The translations under genes were made by a program, and so were the position numbers. A stretch of 30,112 nt of DNA from a virus. Of this stretch, positions 11,084 to 15,885 are shown piece by piece (position 1 is the stretch's first letter; every line of letters starts with the position of its first letter). The DNA lies in the IMG/VR virus record IMGVR_UViG_3300045303_000166, positions 1-30,112 of that record. One strand, given 5' to 3'. Below the pieces are notes generated by a model that saw only the letters and a program-made list of their open reading frames with translations, had not been told where the DNA came from and made no database searches.

Positions 11084-11482
11084 ATGCCGCAGCTCACGAC
11101 GTCGGATATTCTGCTGATCATCGGCGGCTTTGGCGCGATGCTGGTGTCGGTGATCGGCAGTATCGCGGCGGCGTTCATGGCCTACCAGGCCAAGGACCAC
11201 GCGAAGACCGCGGCCGACAAGACCGAGACGGTCGTGTCGCTCGCCAAGACCATCGAAGCCCAGGGCAACTCGAAAGCGTCGGCGGATAAGACCCAGATCG
11301 CGTCGCTCGAGCAGCAACTGGCGACGATGGTCAACATGTTGACGAAGTCCGAAGAACGGGCGCTGGAGCTCGCGCGCGTCCAGGCCGCCCGCGCGCGCGA
11401 GTATCCGCCGCCCGACCTCACGGCGGTCGCGAACGTGATCACCGAGGCGCTGCACGCCACGCCGCCGCCGCTGACGCCGTGA
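11084..11482 (+). CDS. Membrane-anchored coiled-coil protein (possible lysis accessory)
   Basis: A 132-aa protein. One membrane segment lies near the N-terminus (ILLIIGGFGAMLVSVIGSIAAAFMA). It is followed by a long helical, coiled-coil-like region (KDHAKTAADKTETVVSLAKTIEAQ and SLEQQLATMVNMLTKSEERALELARVQ) and a Pro-rich end. The topology resembles inner-membrane spanin or lysis-accessory proteins, but no partner outer-membrane lipoprotein is nested in it. It follows the 231-aa gene by 3 bases. Confidence 0.6.
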   Translation: MPQLTTSDILLIIGGFGAMLVSVIGSIAAAFMAYQAKDHAKTAADKTETVVSLAKTIEAQGNSKASADKTQIASLEQQLATMVNMLTKSEERALELARVQAARAREYPPPDLTAVANVITEALHATPPPLTP

Positions 11483-11706
11483 GCGACGACCGCCGGCGCG
11501 CGGACACGGCGCATCCGTACCCCCACCTGGCGGTCGAGCAGATGACGGCCGCGCAACGCCTCGAGGTCCAGGACGTCCTGACGGAACGGTTTCACGGCCG
11601 GCGGGATCGGGCGGGGTGGGATCGCCGGTACTGGCGGAGCCAGTCGAGACCGGACCACATCTACGTCCGGTGGCGCGTGCTGCCCCTGACGCGGCGCGTG
11701 GCATGA
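11479..11706 (+). CDS. Small basic protein, unknown
   Basis: A 75-aa protein with a GTG start overlapping the preceding stop (GTGA at 11479-11482). It is rich in Arg and aromatic residues (GRRDRAGWDRRYWRSQ). There is no membrane segment or recognised domain. The tight overlaps on both sides argue that it is translated. The positive charge would suit nucleic-acid binding, which is only a guess. Confidence 0.55.
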   Translation: MSDDRRRADTAHPYPHLAVEQMTAAQRLEVQDVLTERFHGRRDRAGWDRRYWRSQSRPDHIYVRWRVLPLTRRVA

Positions 11707-11858
11707 CCCCCGAGCGTGGAACGGCGCGGGACGGATCCGCCGTGACGGATCCCGAACGGTGGGACGCGATGGCGGCGCTGAAGCACAACCCGCTCCGGTG
11801 CCGTGTGACGGGCTGCCCGATCTGCCGGCAGTACTACGCGATCCTCCTCGCGCCGTAG
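11703..11858 (+). CDS. 51-aa Cys-containing protein at the end of the late operon
   Basis: Starts at ATG 11703, overlapping the previous stop (ATGA). The C-terminus holds CRVTGCPICRQYY, three Cys that could form part of a zinc or disulfide site. It is the last rightward gene. Its final 25 bases overlap the 3' end of the convergent minus-strand gene, so late transcription ends about here. Confidence 0.5.
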   Translation: MTPERGTARDGSAVTDPERWDAMAALKHNPLRCRVTGCPICRQYYAILLAP

Positions 11859-12079
11859 CGATCCAATGTTCTGATCGCTCGGTCGATCGTCTTCATCGTC
11901 GGCGGGGCGATCTCGTAGAGCACGTCGATCGTCGCGACGTCGGCAGCGCCGCGGGCGTTCCAGACCAGGCGGAGCTGCTCGACGATGGGCGCGATATCCG
12001 CGTCCAGGGTGAGAGTCTCGCCCGTCGCCTCGAAATGGATTAGGTGCGCGATCCGTTCGAAGTCGGGGGTCTCAGGCAT
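11834..12079 (-). CDS. Small soluble protein, last gene of the minus-strand cassette
   Basis: An 81-aa protein. I chose the ATG at 12079, which overlaps the stop of the secreted-protein gene (TGATG). The longer open frame to 12556 is a shadow of that gene. The sequence is acidic and helical (IAHLIHFEATGETLTLDADIAPIVEQLRLVWN), with no signal peptide or membrane segment. I do not recognise it. It ends convergent with the late operon. Confidence 0.6.
   Translation of the reverse strand: MPETPDFERIAHLIHFEATGETLTLDADIAPIVEQLRLVWNARGAADVATIDVLYEIAPPTMKTIDRAIRTLDRYGARRIA
11857..11879 (+). terminator. Stem-loop at the convergent boundary
   Basis: AGCGATC and GATCGCT form a perfect 7-bp stem with a 9-base loop, starting at the stop of the last rightward gene. 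There is no T-run after it on either strand, so a simple intrinsic terminator is not certain. It also lies inside the coding end of the minus-strand gene. Confidence 0.3.
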
Positions 12080-12468
12080 CAGCGTGACGTTCGTGGGCGC
12101 TCGTCCCGTGGCCCCGTCCGCTGGCTGGCGTGCCCGTAGGCGTGATAGCCGTAGCCGACGTAGGTCCGCTGCTCCCACGGCGGATCCGTCCAGAGGGACC
12201 CGTCCAGGCGCCTGTCGGGGATTTTCGGGGCGAACGTCCCGAACGGGCCATCGCCCGGCGCCGACCGGAGGATCACCGTCCGGGGTCCTGACGCCGGCGG
12301 CACGTAGACGAACTGCCGCACCTCGAGGCCGCGGAGCTCCTCGGCGGTCGGTGTCCGCGTCCAGGCGACAGTTGTCTGCCGCACGTCCGCATTCGTGTAC
12401 AGCCGGGACTGTGCCGCCGCGGGCAATGCCGTGCACAAGAGACTGGCGATCAGGAACAGGGTTCTCAT
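12079..12468 (-). CDS. Sec-secreted small protein (lysogenic-conversion candidate)
   Basis: A 129-aa protein. Its N-terminus is a clear Sec signal peptide: MRT, then hydrophobic LFLIASLLCTALP, then an A-A-A|Q-S signal peptidase I site at about residues 19/20. The mature part is Pro/Gly/Tyr-rich (QFVYVPPASGPRTVILR, TYVGYGYHAYG) and ends in a basic, polar tail. There is no catalytic motif. An exported protein encoded next to attP and opposite to the lytic genes fits a moron expressed in the lysogen. The function is unknown. Confidence 0.7.
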   Translation of the reverse strand: MRTLFLIASLLCTALPAAAQSRLYTNADVRQTTVAWTRTPTAEELRGLEVRQFVYVPPASGPRTVILRSAPGDGPFGTFAPKIPDRRLDGSLWTDPPWEQRTYVGYGYHAYGHASQRTGPRDERPRTSR

Positions 12469-12501
12469 AGATGCACCTCTGCTGCGATGAGCGTGCCAGG
12501 G

Positions 12502-12885
12502 CTACCACCCTTGCTGTTTCGCGTACGCGGTCATGGCCCTGAGTTCTTCCGCGCACGTCTGCGCCTGCGGTGTGATGACTGGTCGATTGACGTACACGTC
12601 ACATCGCCGATGCCAAGCGTCGCGCTGCTCGGCGAACTTCAGGAACCGTTGATGATCCTCGCCGCAGTAGAGCATTACGACTGGGAGCGCCAAGAGCACG
12701 CCGACGATGAGCGCGATGCGTCCCCAGCGCGTTTTCGCGCGGGCCGTGGGCGGCGCGTCGGCAACGGGCAGCGTCACCGGCTGCGGAGGGGCGGACACAC
12801 GTCCTGGAATCAGATCGCGCCCGCAGTGCTTGCAGACGATGGCGGCGTCCTGGATCTCTTCGGCGCAGAAGCGGCACTTTCTCAT
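12502..12885 (-). CDS. Zinc-ribbon, single-span membrane protein
   Basis: A 127-aa protein. The start ATG at 12885 overlaps the lipoprotein stop (ATGA), and the upstream open frame is a shadow. A CxxC...CxxC zinc ribbon lies at the N-terminus (C4, C7, C18, C21: MRKCRFCAEEIQDAAIVCKH). A Pro-rich linker follows, then one membrane helix (IALIVGVLLALPVVMLY) and an outside domain with several Cys (RRCDVYVNRPVITPQAQTCAEEL). Such cytoplasmic zinc-ribbon/TM proteins are common in bacteria but rarely assigned. In context it is part of an envelope-directed cassette. Confidence 0.7.
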   Translation of the reverse strand: MRKCRFCAEEIQDAAIVCKHCGRDLIPGRVSAPPQPVTLPVADAPPTARAKTRWGRIALIVGVLLALPVVMLYCGEDHQRFLKFAEQRDAWHRRCDVYVNRPVITPQAQTCAEELRAMTAYAKQQGW

Positions 12886-13394
12886 GGTCGCGCAGTCTTC
12901 GCGCCCGTATAGTCCGCGTTGCCCGCGTCCATCCAGACGGCGGCCTGGGCCCAGATGGCCTTGATGCCGGCGTCCGCATCGATCACTCCAGTCCGCTCGC
13001 GCGGGAGCCCGTGCTTGTTCGCGAGCTCGGTCACCTCGTCCAGGTCGCTGAGCAGGGACCCGTGACGGATCTTCAGCGCCCACAGGGCGGCGCTGTCCTG
13101 GTAGAGCGGCAGCGTCCTCGCGTAGTCGTCCACCACGCGGCGCTCCGCGTCGTTGGACGCCTTGTCCCGCGCGATCGCGACTTCCGTGCTGAACTGTTGC
13201 AGCAGCGCCCCGAACTGCGCGTACGTCACGCCGACGCCCGTGCTCGCCTCAACGGCCTTCGCCGATCGGTACAAGGGCTCCAGCTTCTTCTTGTCGACGC
13301 CGCCACAGCCCGTCACGGCCGCGAGCGTGAGCACGGCGGCGGCGAGGAGCGCGCCGCGCCAGACATGCGGCTTCGAGATGCTGACAACCGTCAT
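12882..13394 (-). CDS. Lipoprotein (lysogenic conversion or superinfection exclusion candidate)
   Basis: A 170-aa protein starting with a lipoprotein signal peptide. Basic residues are followed by LLAAAVLTLAA and the lipobox V-T-G-C with Cys30, then G-G-V-D-K-K-K. The mature part is helical (YAQFGALLQQFSTEVAIARDKASNDAERRVVDDYARTLP is split here by the signal-free helices) and lacks enzymatic motifs. Phage-encoded lipoproteins such as those of T5 and TP-J34 block superinfection, but no sequence match is claimed. It is the first gene of the four-gene leftward cassette, 0.14 kb from attP. Confidence 0.7.
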   Translation of the reverse strand: MTVVSISKPHVWRGALLAAAVLTLAAVTGCGGVDKKKLEPLYRSAKAVEASTGVGVTYAQFGALLQQFSTEVAIARDKASNDAERRVVDDYARTLPLYQDSAALWALKIRHGSLLSDLDEVTELANKHGLPRERTGVIDADAGIKAIWAQAAVWMDAGNADYTGAKTARP

Positions 13395-13497
13395 GGATCA
13401 GCGCGTCGGAAAATCGTGAGTGGAGCGTGAATGGGAATCATCGTTTCGTGGCGAAACGCGGTGTTTAGCGGCGGTCGAGCGACGGTCGCGCTGATCC
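13395..13497. repeat. 11-bp inverted repeat flanking a hairpin upstream of the lipoprotein gene
   Basis: GGATCAGCGCG at 13395-13405 is perfectly inverted at 13487-13497. Inside lies a 7-bp hairpin, CGTTTCG-TGG-CGAAACG, at 13442-13458. The block lies between the start of the envelope cassette and attP. It could carry a promoter/operator, a transcription stop for the integrase unit, or arm-type sites for integrase. Confidence 0.6.
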
Positions 13498-13536
13498 CGA
13501 ATTACGCGATTCGTGCCGGAATTCATTGATTTATTG

Positions 13537-13587
13537 TGGTGGACGACGCGAGGCTCGAACTCGCGACCTCCGCGTTGCGAATGCGGC
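13537..13587 (-). other. attP: 3' half of a tRNA-Ala(CGC) gene
   Basis: Read on the minus strand, the block gives an anticodon stem-loop with loop TTCGCAA (anticodon CGC) and variable loop AGGTC. The T-stem GCGAG/CTCGC closes the loop TTCGAGC. The 3' acceptor strand GTCGTCC is followed by discriminator A and CCA. No D-arm or 5' acceptor strand precedes it, so it is not a full tRNA. The position corresponding to U70 fits the alanine identity G3-U70 pair. One anticodon-stem pair (31-39) is mismatched here, as expected near the end of a copied core. Its place beside a tyrosine integrase makes it the phage attachment site. Confidence 0.8.
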
Positions 13588-13659: not shown

Positions 13660-14031
13660 TCACGACCAGCCGCCGGGGCCGCAGGGGCAACCGGCTACGA
13701 TGCACGCGCCGTCCAGCCCGACGTGCGCGGACGCCGGGTGGCCGCACTTCGGCGTGCGGCAGTCGCAGTCCGGTACCTCACGCAGGAGCCGCCGCAGCGC
13801 CGCCGCGAGCGTCGTAGCATCGGCCGCACCCATCGTCAATCCAATCAGCGCCTCGACCGGAATCATCGCCTCGTGGCACTTCACGATATTTGCGCGGCGG
13901 ACGATGAACGCCGCGTCCTCGCGCGAATAGATGCCGGCACCGTCGAGGGTCGGCGCGTAGCCGAGACTGCCGGGCGCCCACCAGGCCTCGTGCTCCATCG
14001 ACCAGATCACGAACTCGTGAGGGGCCGTCAT
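13660..14031 (-). CDS. Small Cys-rich protein downstream of integrase
   Basis: A 123-aa protein. ATG 14031 overlaps the integrase stop (TGATG), and the longer open frame is a shadow of int. The N-terminal region HEFVIWSMEHEAWWAPGSLGY, followed by an IYSREDAAFIV helix, is like small prophage proteins of unknown role. The C-terminus has a dense Cys/His cluster (CDCRTPKCGHPASAHVG, then CIVAGCPCG), probably zinc-binding. It lies between int and attP in the leftward operon. Confidence 0.65.
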   Translation of the reverse strand: MTAPHEFVIWSMEHEAWWAPGSLGYAPTLDGAGIYSREDAAFIVRRANIVKCHEAMIPVEALIGLTMGAADATTLAAALRRLLREVPDCDCRTPKCGHPASAHVGLDGACIVAGCPCGPGGWS

Positions 14032-15107
14032 CAGGCGCGTTTCCGTTTCTTTACTGGCACAGCGTCGACCGCCTCGAGCAGATCCGCCGTCGTCACCTCG
14101 GTGTAGATCTCGAGTAGGACGTCGGGCTTCTTCCAGTTGCCGAGCCGTTGGACCGCCGGCAGTTTCTTCCCGCGCGTCATCAACAAGTCGGTCGCGCCAC
14201 TTCGGCGAGTGCCCCAATGGAAGGTAATGCCGTTGGCCGTGCGGCCGTAGTCCAGGTCGGCTTGCCCGCAGAGATACTCGAGCCGCTGGCGCACGCTGCC
14301 CGGCCAGTCCCGTTCGTTCAGGGCGCGTCGAAACTTCGGGAACAGGTACCGGCTGGTCGAGGCGTCGATCGCCGTCACCGCGGCCTGGGCGCGCGGGGAC
14401 AGGGCCGTCTCGTAGGGGGTCCCGCCTTTCGGATCGCGGATGTAGAGCAGGGCCCCGGTCCGGTCGCTGTGTTGCAGGTCGAGCAGGTCGCCGAGCCGGA
14501 CCAGGCTATCCCGGCCGAGCACCAGGATGGCCGTGTCCTCGGCATCCTCACAGACGGCCAGGAGTTGCGCGAACTCCTTCTCCGACGTGTACCGGCGCCG
14601 CGGCGGGACCGTGGCGAGGCGGGCCATCCCGCGGATCGGCGACGTCGCCAGATACTTCGGCACGGCATCGCGCAGCATGCCCTTTAACAGATCGACTTCG
14701 CGGTTGATCGTGACGGCCGCGGCCGGCGGTTTGTCCGCCTTCCGAAAGGTGTGATACGCGCGCACGCGATCCTGATCGATCACCGTGAGTAAGTCGGGGC
14801 CGAAGAAGCGGAGGAGTTGCTGCAGGAGCTCGCCTTCGCGCCGCGCGCCTTTGCGATGCGCAATGGTGTCGGTCTTGTACGGCGCGGCGTACTTGGCGAA
14901 CCGGATCGCCGGCTGCGCGCTGGGGAGTTGGTAGAGCCGCGCCGCCAGTTGGTTCATCCGCTGATGGTACCGGTCGGTGGCCAGGCGGCGGCTATCCCGT
15001 CGCTGCGTGGTCGTCTCACCGACGGCAATGTCGGTTTTCTCGCGTTGCTTGGTCGTCTCGAGCCACAGCCACCAGTACGGCGAATCGGGACGACGGAAGA
15101 CGCCCAT
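14031..15107 (-). CDS. int: Tyrosine recombinase integrase
   Basis: A 358-aa site-specific recombinase. The N-terminus (YWWLWLETTKQREKTDIAVG) is an arm-binding-like segment, and residues about 65-160 form the core-binding SAM-like domain. Catalytic positions are visible: R204 in SLVRLGDLLDL, K227 in RDPKGGT, H297 with R301 in FHWGTRRSGATDLL, N324/W325 in LGNWKKPDV and nucleophile Y335 in EIYTEV. H297-x3-R301 is one residue longer than the usual H-x-x-R. It recombines attP (13537-13587) with the matching host tRNA gene. It is translated from an ATG directly after the stop of the upstream gene. Confidence 0.93.
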   Translation of the reverse strand: MGVFRRPDSPYWWLWLETTKQREKTDIAVGETTTQRRDSRRLATDRYHQRMNQLAARLYQLPSAQPAIRFAKYAAPYKTDTIAHRKGARREGELLQQLLRFFGPDLLTVIDQDRVRAYHTFRKADKPPAAAVTINREVDLLKGMLRDAVPKYLATSPIRGMARLATVPPRRRYTSEKEFAQLLAVCEDAEDTAILVLGRDSLVRLGDLLDLQHSDRTGALLYIRDPKGGTPYETALSPRAQAAVTAIDASTSRYLFPKFRRALNERDWPGSVRQRLEYLCGQADLDYGRTANGITFHWGTRRSGATDLLMTRGKKLPAVQRLGNWKKPDVLLEIYTEVTTADLLEAVDAVPVKKRKRA

Positions 15108-15347: not shown

Positions 15348-15885
15348 TCACCTCCCACTCGGTGAGGCCGAAGGCTTACTACCGCCATCCTTCTTGTGCC
15401 GTTGCTGTTTGGTGATCTTTTCGTACTCGGTGATCACCTTGATCGTGGACTTCTGCAGCTTCGGCGGTAGCTTACCGAGGCGCCTGGCGACGGCCAACAA
15501 CCAAGGATCAACGGATCGGGGAATCGCCCGGGGGCGATTGAGCGCCATCGTGCGTTTGACTTCGGATTGGATCTTGTCGATGACCCGCTTTTCCTCAGCC
15601 TGGGTGAGTCGGCGTTCGGGGGACACGAGCACGGATTCGAGCGGCACGCCGAAAAATTCGGCGAATTGACGCAAGGTCTCCATCCGCACGTCCAAGCCAT
15701 TCGCCGCACGACTCGCCTTATTGGGCGACATCCCTGTGCCTTCGACGACGTGGGACTGCCGCAGATTTTTTTTCCTTGAACCAATACTGGATGGCGTCGC
15801 CCCAAGGGCCATCCCCCTTTCGCGCCGCCCGTTTAGCCATCCTCGGAGCATAGGAGGCGGACGAGACACTCACCAACTGACTCAT
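15348..15885 (-). CDS. cI-like HTH repressor, interrupted by a frameshift
   Basis: Two overlapping minus frames together make one XRE-type repressor. The first (from ATG 15885) reads MSQLVSVSSA... to GDAIQYWFKEKK, helix 1 of the HTH. The second, open to 15348, continues with NLRQSHVVEGTGMSPNKAS (helices 2-3) and LRQFAEFFGVPLESVLVSPE. A C-terminal helical/basic region follows. The break is at a run of eight A on the minus strand (15766-15773). Seven would restore a continuous protein of about 178 aa. It is either a real inactivating indel, slippage-dependent expression, or a sequence error. The ATG at 15945 lies inside the operator and is less likely as a start. The gene is divergent from the Cro-like gene. 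Confidence 0.7.

Follow-up and report, generated by a model that had tools for sequence, protein, structure and literature searches.

A probable lysogenic-conversion cargo locus between attP and the late genes of a temperate Acidobacteriota phage

Acidobacteriota are among the commonest bacteria in soil, and to our knowledge their temperate phages are almost unstudied. What, then, is the role of four minus-strand genes that lie between the attachment site and the convergent late genes of one such phage? A sequence-only reading had taken this group (11834-13394; genes A to D below, numbered from the attP side) for a lysogenic-conversion cassette of envelope-directed proteins, with a novel exclusion or host-modifying system as a possibility. 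We followed up this proposal in the window, which is the whole viral record of 30,112 bases, and ordered its genes with a codon-usage caller trained on the phage and its relatives.

Genome setting, host and attachment site

The gene order obtained with this caller is that of a temperate tailed phage. On the plus strand, tail and lysis genes fill the left part of the contig up to 11,858, and capsid and portal genes extend to the right end; these names are our reading of the sequences. The caller placed a repressor-like HTH gene on the minus strand (15348-15731) and the early genes on the plus strand from 15,968. A tyrosine integrase is encoded on the minus strand at 14031-15107 (phrog_1, E 3e-23). 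Since the portal gene is apparently split between the contig ends (28841-30112 and 2-277, two halves that do not join exactly in frame), the contig probably represents a circularly permuted and almost complete genome. Gene E (13660-14031, minus strand) lies between attP and the integrase gene, whose stop it overlaps. It encodes a Cys-rich small protein of 123 residues (phrog_6114) whose C-terminus carries the motif CDC..CGHPASAH..C, and a similar C-terminus is encoded in another locus by a small gene (L003:7294-7548) that lies upstream of the one for the zinc ribbon. A conserved gene that directly follows the integrase in related phages (MSKQLLVLEEVxAMLE.IGASK...; copies at L031:5689-6099, L039:1706-2116 and L040:2760-3053) is absent from the window.

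The cassette had been described as adjoining attP, and this proved correct. The attP core, 44 bp on the minus strand at 13537-13580, matches the 3' half of a tRNA-Ala(CGC) gene from the anticodon loop to CCA and lies 142 bp upstream of gene A; homology to the tRNA continues to about 13589 with one mismatch. When the 5' half from a host was joined to the 3' half from the phage, the joined sequence was called as tRNA-Ala. This tRNA fragment also directly follows int in four integrase relatives (L038, L041, L045 and L046). Allowing up to three mismatches, the 44 bp occurred in 15 of 193 genomes from the class of the MAG "Acidobacteria bacterium RIFCSPLOWO2_12_FULL_67_14b", as against none of 185 genomes from the class of Halotalea (Gammaproteobacteria). 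In GTDB the former class is probably Vicinamibacteria. The phage is a temperate phage of soil Acidobacteriota. Integration would leave the restored tRNA-Ala(CGC) at the same distance upstream of gene A and on the same strand, with int and E at the opposite prophage end. As the tRNA reads towards A to D, the cargo would be found immediately downstream of a host tRNA gene in the lysogen.

The leader between attP and gene A (13395-13536, minus strand) is a candidate promoter/operator region. It contains a perfect palindrome with 7-bp arms (CGTTTCG-TGG-CGAAACG, about 13443-13459), which judged from its sequence is a possible operator. The leader contained no sigma-70 match, and a pattern search found no promoter or terminator, such patterns not being decisive for this phylum. 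A pair of 19-bp repeats flanks attP, at 13434-13452 and at 13859-13877 within the gene E region; we considered them as possible integrase arm sites, but the second copy falls inside gene E.

The four genes and their products

All four genes were recovered at exactly the coordinates first proposed. The codon-usage caller preferred their frames over long plus-strand ORFs, and each frame has homologues of its own (A at 52%, B at 44%, C at 42-48% in phages, D in 18 viral loci), so none of the four is a chance ORF produced by GC-rich DNA. The description of them as overlapping one another holds for A and B (4 bp) and for C and D (1 bp), whereas B and C are separated by a 33-bp gap. That the group opposes the lytic genes was borne out: it is convergent with the plus-strand late genes, and D overlaps the last small ORF of the late region (11703-11858, plus strand) by 25 bp. 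Searches of Pfam, PHROGs, NCBIfam and PADLOC assigned no function to any of the four products, and none matched the PADLOC models of known anti-phage defence systems. As anticipated, A, C and D could be placed in no named family, and single-protein searches of 50,697 cultured-phage records with the same three returned no match. Of the structure predictions and profile searches proposed for all four, the profile searches gave none a function, and AF2 models were obtained for A and D, neither of which had a significant fold match in the PDB.

Gene A (12882-13394, minus strand) encodes a lipoprotein of 170 residues that contains MTVVSISKPHVWRGALLAAAVLTLAAVTGC and has, as first described, a VTGC lipobox (LAAVTGC), with Cys30 as its cysteine. 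Its mature domain was confidently modelled as five helices (pLDDT above 90 over most of its length) and had no match in Pfam-A at E<=1. No viral relative of A was found, whether the scans used the single protein or a profile, so its presence in a phage may be recent or transient. Relatives were instead found in Acidobacteriota chromosomes (L060, L108 and L109; L059 is 52% identical), and the stretch fetched for L060 holds ordinary chromosomal genes and no phage genes. Weak matches at L063, L064 and L067 were rejected as loci of other genes.

Gene C (12079-12468, minus strand) encodes the Sec-secreted protein of the cassette, 129 residues long, with a signal peptide ending AAA^QS and the motif QSxxYTNAD directly after the cleavage site. 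In L022, L105 and L107 a homologue is found in the equivalent slot, and across the four phages in which C is found there both the signal peptide and the YTNAD motif are retained. The homologue in L105 adjoins toxin-antitoxin-like genes, among which an MqsA-like gene lies in the slot. C also has one Acidobacteriota chromosomal relative (L068), likewise among ordinary chromosomal genes in the stretch fetched. These chromosomal relatives of A and C (L060, L108, L109 and L068) are 19-39% identical to the phage proteins, similar in size and still equipped with the lipobox or signal peptide, but differ in their surroundings, which are ordinary and free of phage genes where examined. It thus appears that A and C are envelope genes acquired from hosts.

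Gene B (12502-12885, minus strand) encodes the zinc-ribbon membrane protein that had been read from the sequence: 127 residues with an N-terminal ribbon (CxxC-x10-CxxC), a single TM segment preceded by basic residues, and a C-terminal domain with two Cys. The basic residues and the positive-inside rule would put the N-terminus inside and the C-terminal domain outside. B matched the zinc-ribbon families PF13240/PF12773 below their curated cut-offs (E 0.002) and phrog_8436, which has no named function, at E 3e-9; among the 50,697 cultured-phage records it found only zinc-ribbon matches, in two records. Proteins with a B-like ribbon and TM segment are located after int in L002, L004 and L042, and in L002 the C-terminal domain is conserved as well.

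In outline, the topologies of a lipoprotein A and an N-in, C-out protein B fit a pair resembling an o-spanin and an i-spanin, which would make the two genes part of the lysis machinery. We consider this very improbable. Both genes are on the strand opposite the lysis region, where a plus-strand ORF at 11084-11482, likely a lysis-region gene (TM segment plus coiled coil, weakly matching Rz-like spanin and holin PHROGs), is the better spanin candidate. Moreover, the zinc ribbon of B is predicted to be cytoplasmic, A has relatives in bacterial chromosomes, neither protein matched the spanin families of Pfam or PHROG, and the nested or adjacent arrangement of a lysis cassette was not found.

Gene D (11834-12079, minus strand) encodes, as the first description had it, a small soluble protein: 81 residues, no signal, and three helices in the AF2 model (mean pLDDT 80). 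Faint histone-like matches (E above 1, TM about 0.4) were not accepted as evidence, and an apparent match in Halotalea was rejected as chance because it is intergenic. Relatives of D were found in 18 viral loci, and the only clear match from genome assemblies, L052, turned out to be a phage region too. D thus looks like phage property; it belongs to a phage family not described before, which recurs in slots of this kind.

The accessory slot in related phages

In related phages the corresponding position holds accessory genes on the integrase strand, convergent with the late genes. As the final gene of the slot, D directly borders the convergent late genes in eight loci (L012, L013, L014, L019, L024, L027, L028 and L029), and in five others a single cargo gene follows it (L015, L016, L017, L018 and L022). 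Outside the slot, D is found before int (L020), among early genes (L023 and L025) and in the terminase-portal interval (L021/L052). The slot contents comprise C homologues, B-like zinc ribbons, GT87 and PMT_2 glycosyltransferases, lipoproteins and toxin-antitoxin pairs. Beside D we found a GT87 membrane glycosyltransferase (L015:8518-9714, E 3e-24), a PMT_2 membrane glycosyltransferase scoring above cut-off (L018:8470-9705) and an HTH_37 antitoxin (L018); a Big_1 lipoprotein directly precedes D in L012, and a lipoprotein with a zinc-protease-like motif follows it in L016, as does a C homologue in L022. The two glycosyltransferases are strong candidates for receptor-modifying lysogenic-conversion genes. 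By a crude home-made classifier of signals and TM segments, whose simplicity makes the figures indicative only, signal-peptide and lipoprotein genes show a 3.2-fold excess around D (p = 0.01), and its immediate neighbours are enriched in exported or TM genes (p = 0.02), whereas envelope proteins across integrase-matched slots are not significantly enriched (p = 0.2), so that the enrichment is confined to slots marked by D.

The content of the slot turns over even between phages whose integrases are 70% identical. In the sequence examined from the closest integrase relatives (about 70%), no homologue of A, B, C or D was present, which suggests that the four genes are dispensable for the lytic cycle. 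As expected of a moron, the cassette is separate from the modules essential for lytic growth, and what its slot contains differs from one related phage to another. Since its genes recur separately in other phages, a single four-gene system is doubtful, and the cassette looks as if it was assembled gene by gene.

Such turnover would also be seen if A and C, as genes of host origin, and a mobile gene for a zinc ribbon had simply gathered at a recombination-prone slot as neutral passengers with no selected function, and the lack of viral relatives of A and the chromosomal relatives of A and C are compatible with this. We nevertheless regard it as unlikely, because none of the four frames is interrupted and their starts and stops overlap or lie close together, because C keeps its signal peptide and YTNAD motif at the same slot in four phages, and because the C-terminal domain of B is conserved in L002.

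The recurrence of D raises the alternative that the function of the locus centres on D, which would be a small protein of defence, antitoxin or anti-defence type accompanied by varying cargo. Its 18 viral loci, in some of which it stands beside toxin-antitoxin-like pairs (such as that with HTH_37 in L018), and the MqsA-like gene in the slot of the C-bearing locus L105 point in this direction. However, D has no family or fold match and no partner common to all its loci, and we give this alternative slightly less weight than neutral carriage. D-type genes share conserved islands at the start (MPExPDFDQIA), middle (EQLRQVWNARGAAD) and end (LDRALRxLDR) that flank variable stretches. The invariance of the peptide WNARGAAD arises partly by construction, as this peptide was a search pattern; this does not apply to the motifs at the two termini or to the synonymous conservation. 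Codons within the islands are more uniform than codon usage predicts (CCT at codon 2, CTC for the island Leu, CGC-GGC in WNARGAAD). Unrelated ORFs have only an MPESPDF start in common with D, and the D-type genes of L012-L029 and of 11834-12079 often occur as tandem copies. The synonymous conservation of the islands, together with MPESPDF in other ORFs, fits mosaic shuffling by short homology, and the D-type genes are possibly a recombination-driven mosaic family. A more speculative combined view, to which we assign a low probability, is that D is a portable cargo-slot module of Acidobacteriota phages, providing both a partner for envelope cargo and the homology for swapping it, with the cargo expressed behind the tRNA-Ala gene restored by integration. 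Under that view the conserved islands might, with equally little confidence, serve both as functional partner and as the short homologies for cargo exchange.

Probable lysogenic conversion and possible superinfection exclusion

The position and strand of the locus, its changing content and the envelope targeting of its products together make a lysogenic-conversion locus the best reading: A to D are probably moron cargo that modifies the host envelope, in a slot bounded by attP on one side and the late-gene end on the other. Counting against this reading are the fruitless promoter and terminator search, the non-significant enrichment of envelope proteins across integrase-matched slots, the lack of all four genes in the sequence examined from the closest integrase relatives, and the failure to find a viral relative of A. 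The earlier impression of a lysogenic-conversion cassette is upheld in that the accessory slot is conserved and carries envelope cargo in related phages; that the four genes form one joint system is doubtful. A late end beside an att site, antisense to lytic genes, is a described position for such loci (PMC3952083, PMC7067206). Modules at the late end/attR of Streptococcus thermophilus phages (PMC3952083) likewise extend from the late-gene end to the att site, are swapped between related phages and carry small cargo, whereas A to D belong to a phage of a Gram-negative Acidobacteriota host, are antisense to the late genes and encode other proteins.

In the proposed mechanism, the cassette would be transcribed in the lysogen and not in the lytic programme, either from its own promoter in 13395-13536 or by read-through from the tRNA-Ala unit. 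A would be anchored in the envelope, B would span the inner membrane with the ribbon on the cytoplasmic side, and C would act in the periplasm or outside; D would be cytoplasmic, perhaps as a partner or regulator. Jointly or as separate cargo these proteins may alter the host envelope, the likeliest benefit being surface or stress fitness of the lysogen, or resistance to other phages.

A narrower interpretation is that A to D, or A and B alone, are dedicated to superinfection exclusion, with the lipoprotein and the inner-membrane protein blocking DNA entry by other phages. We regard this as possible but distinctly less probable than lysogenic-conversion cargo in general. Three of the four products are targeted to the envelope, and the claim that lipoproteins of other prophages block superinfection is documented for Ltp of phage TP-J34 (PMC3952083); a second precedent is gp15 of HK97, an inner-membrane moron reported to exclude phages in work that PMC11436027 cites. 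Like A, Ltp is a small phage lipoprotein encoded near the integrase and outside the lytic genes. However, A lies on the other side of attP, whereas Ltp lies between int and the repressor, and A shares neither its family nor its layout of lipid anchor, Ser-rich spacer and repeat domain: beyond the lipobox it is predicted to be a single helical bundle. B and gp15 do not align (E<=100), B lies beside attP, and its ribbon precedes the TM segment instead of following it. A little is added by Salmonella phage FSL SP-016, in which a gene for a TM segment and zinc ribbon of the B type (L112:3815-4150) takes the position of HK97 gp15, between a gp14-type gene and the tape measure gene, so that in this phage a protein of this kind serves as a moron. 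Against dedicated exclusion, none of A to D matched an exclusion family in Pfam, PHROG, NCBIfam or PADLOC, and the four genes are not kept together in relatives.

As lysogenic-conversion cargo, the locus is of a familiar kind but is built from four unstudied proteins. The slot, with D as its marker gene, offers a handle for listing what phages add to the envelopes of Acidobacteriota. These additions include glycosyltransferases, lipoproteins and secreted proteins, and the small proteins among them are candidates for phage exclusion.
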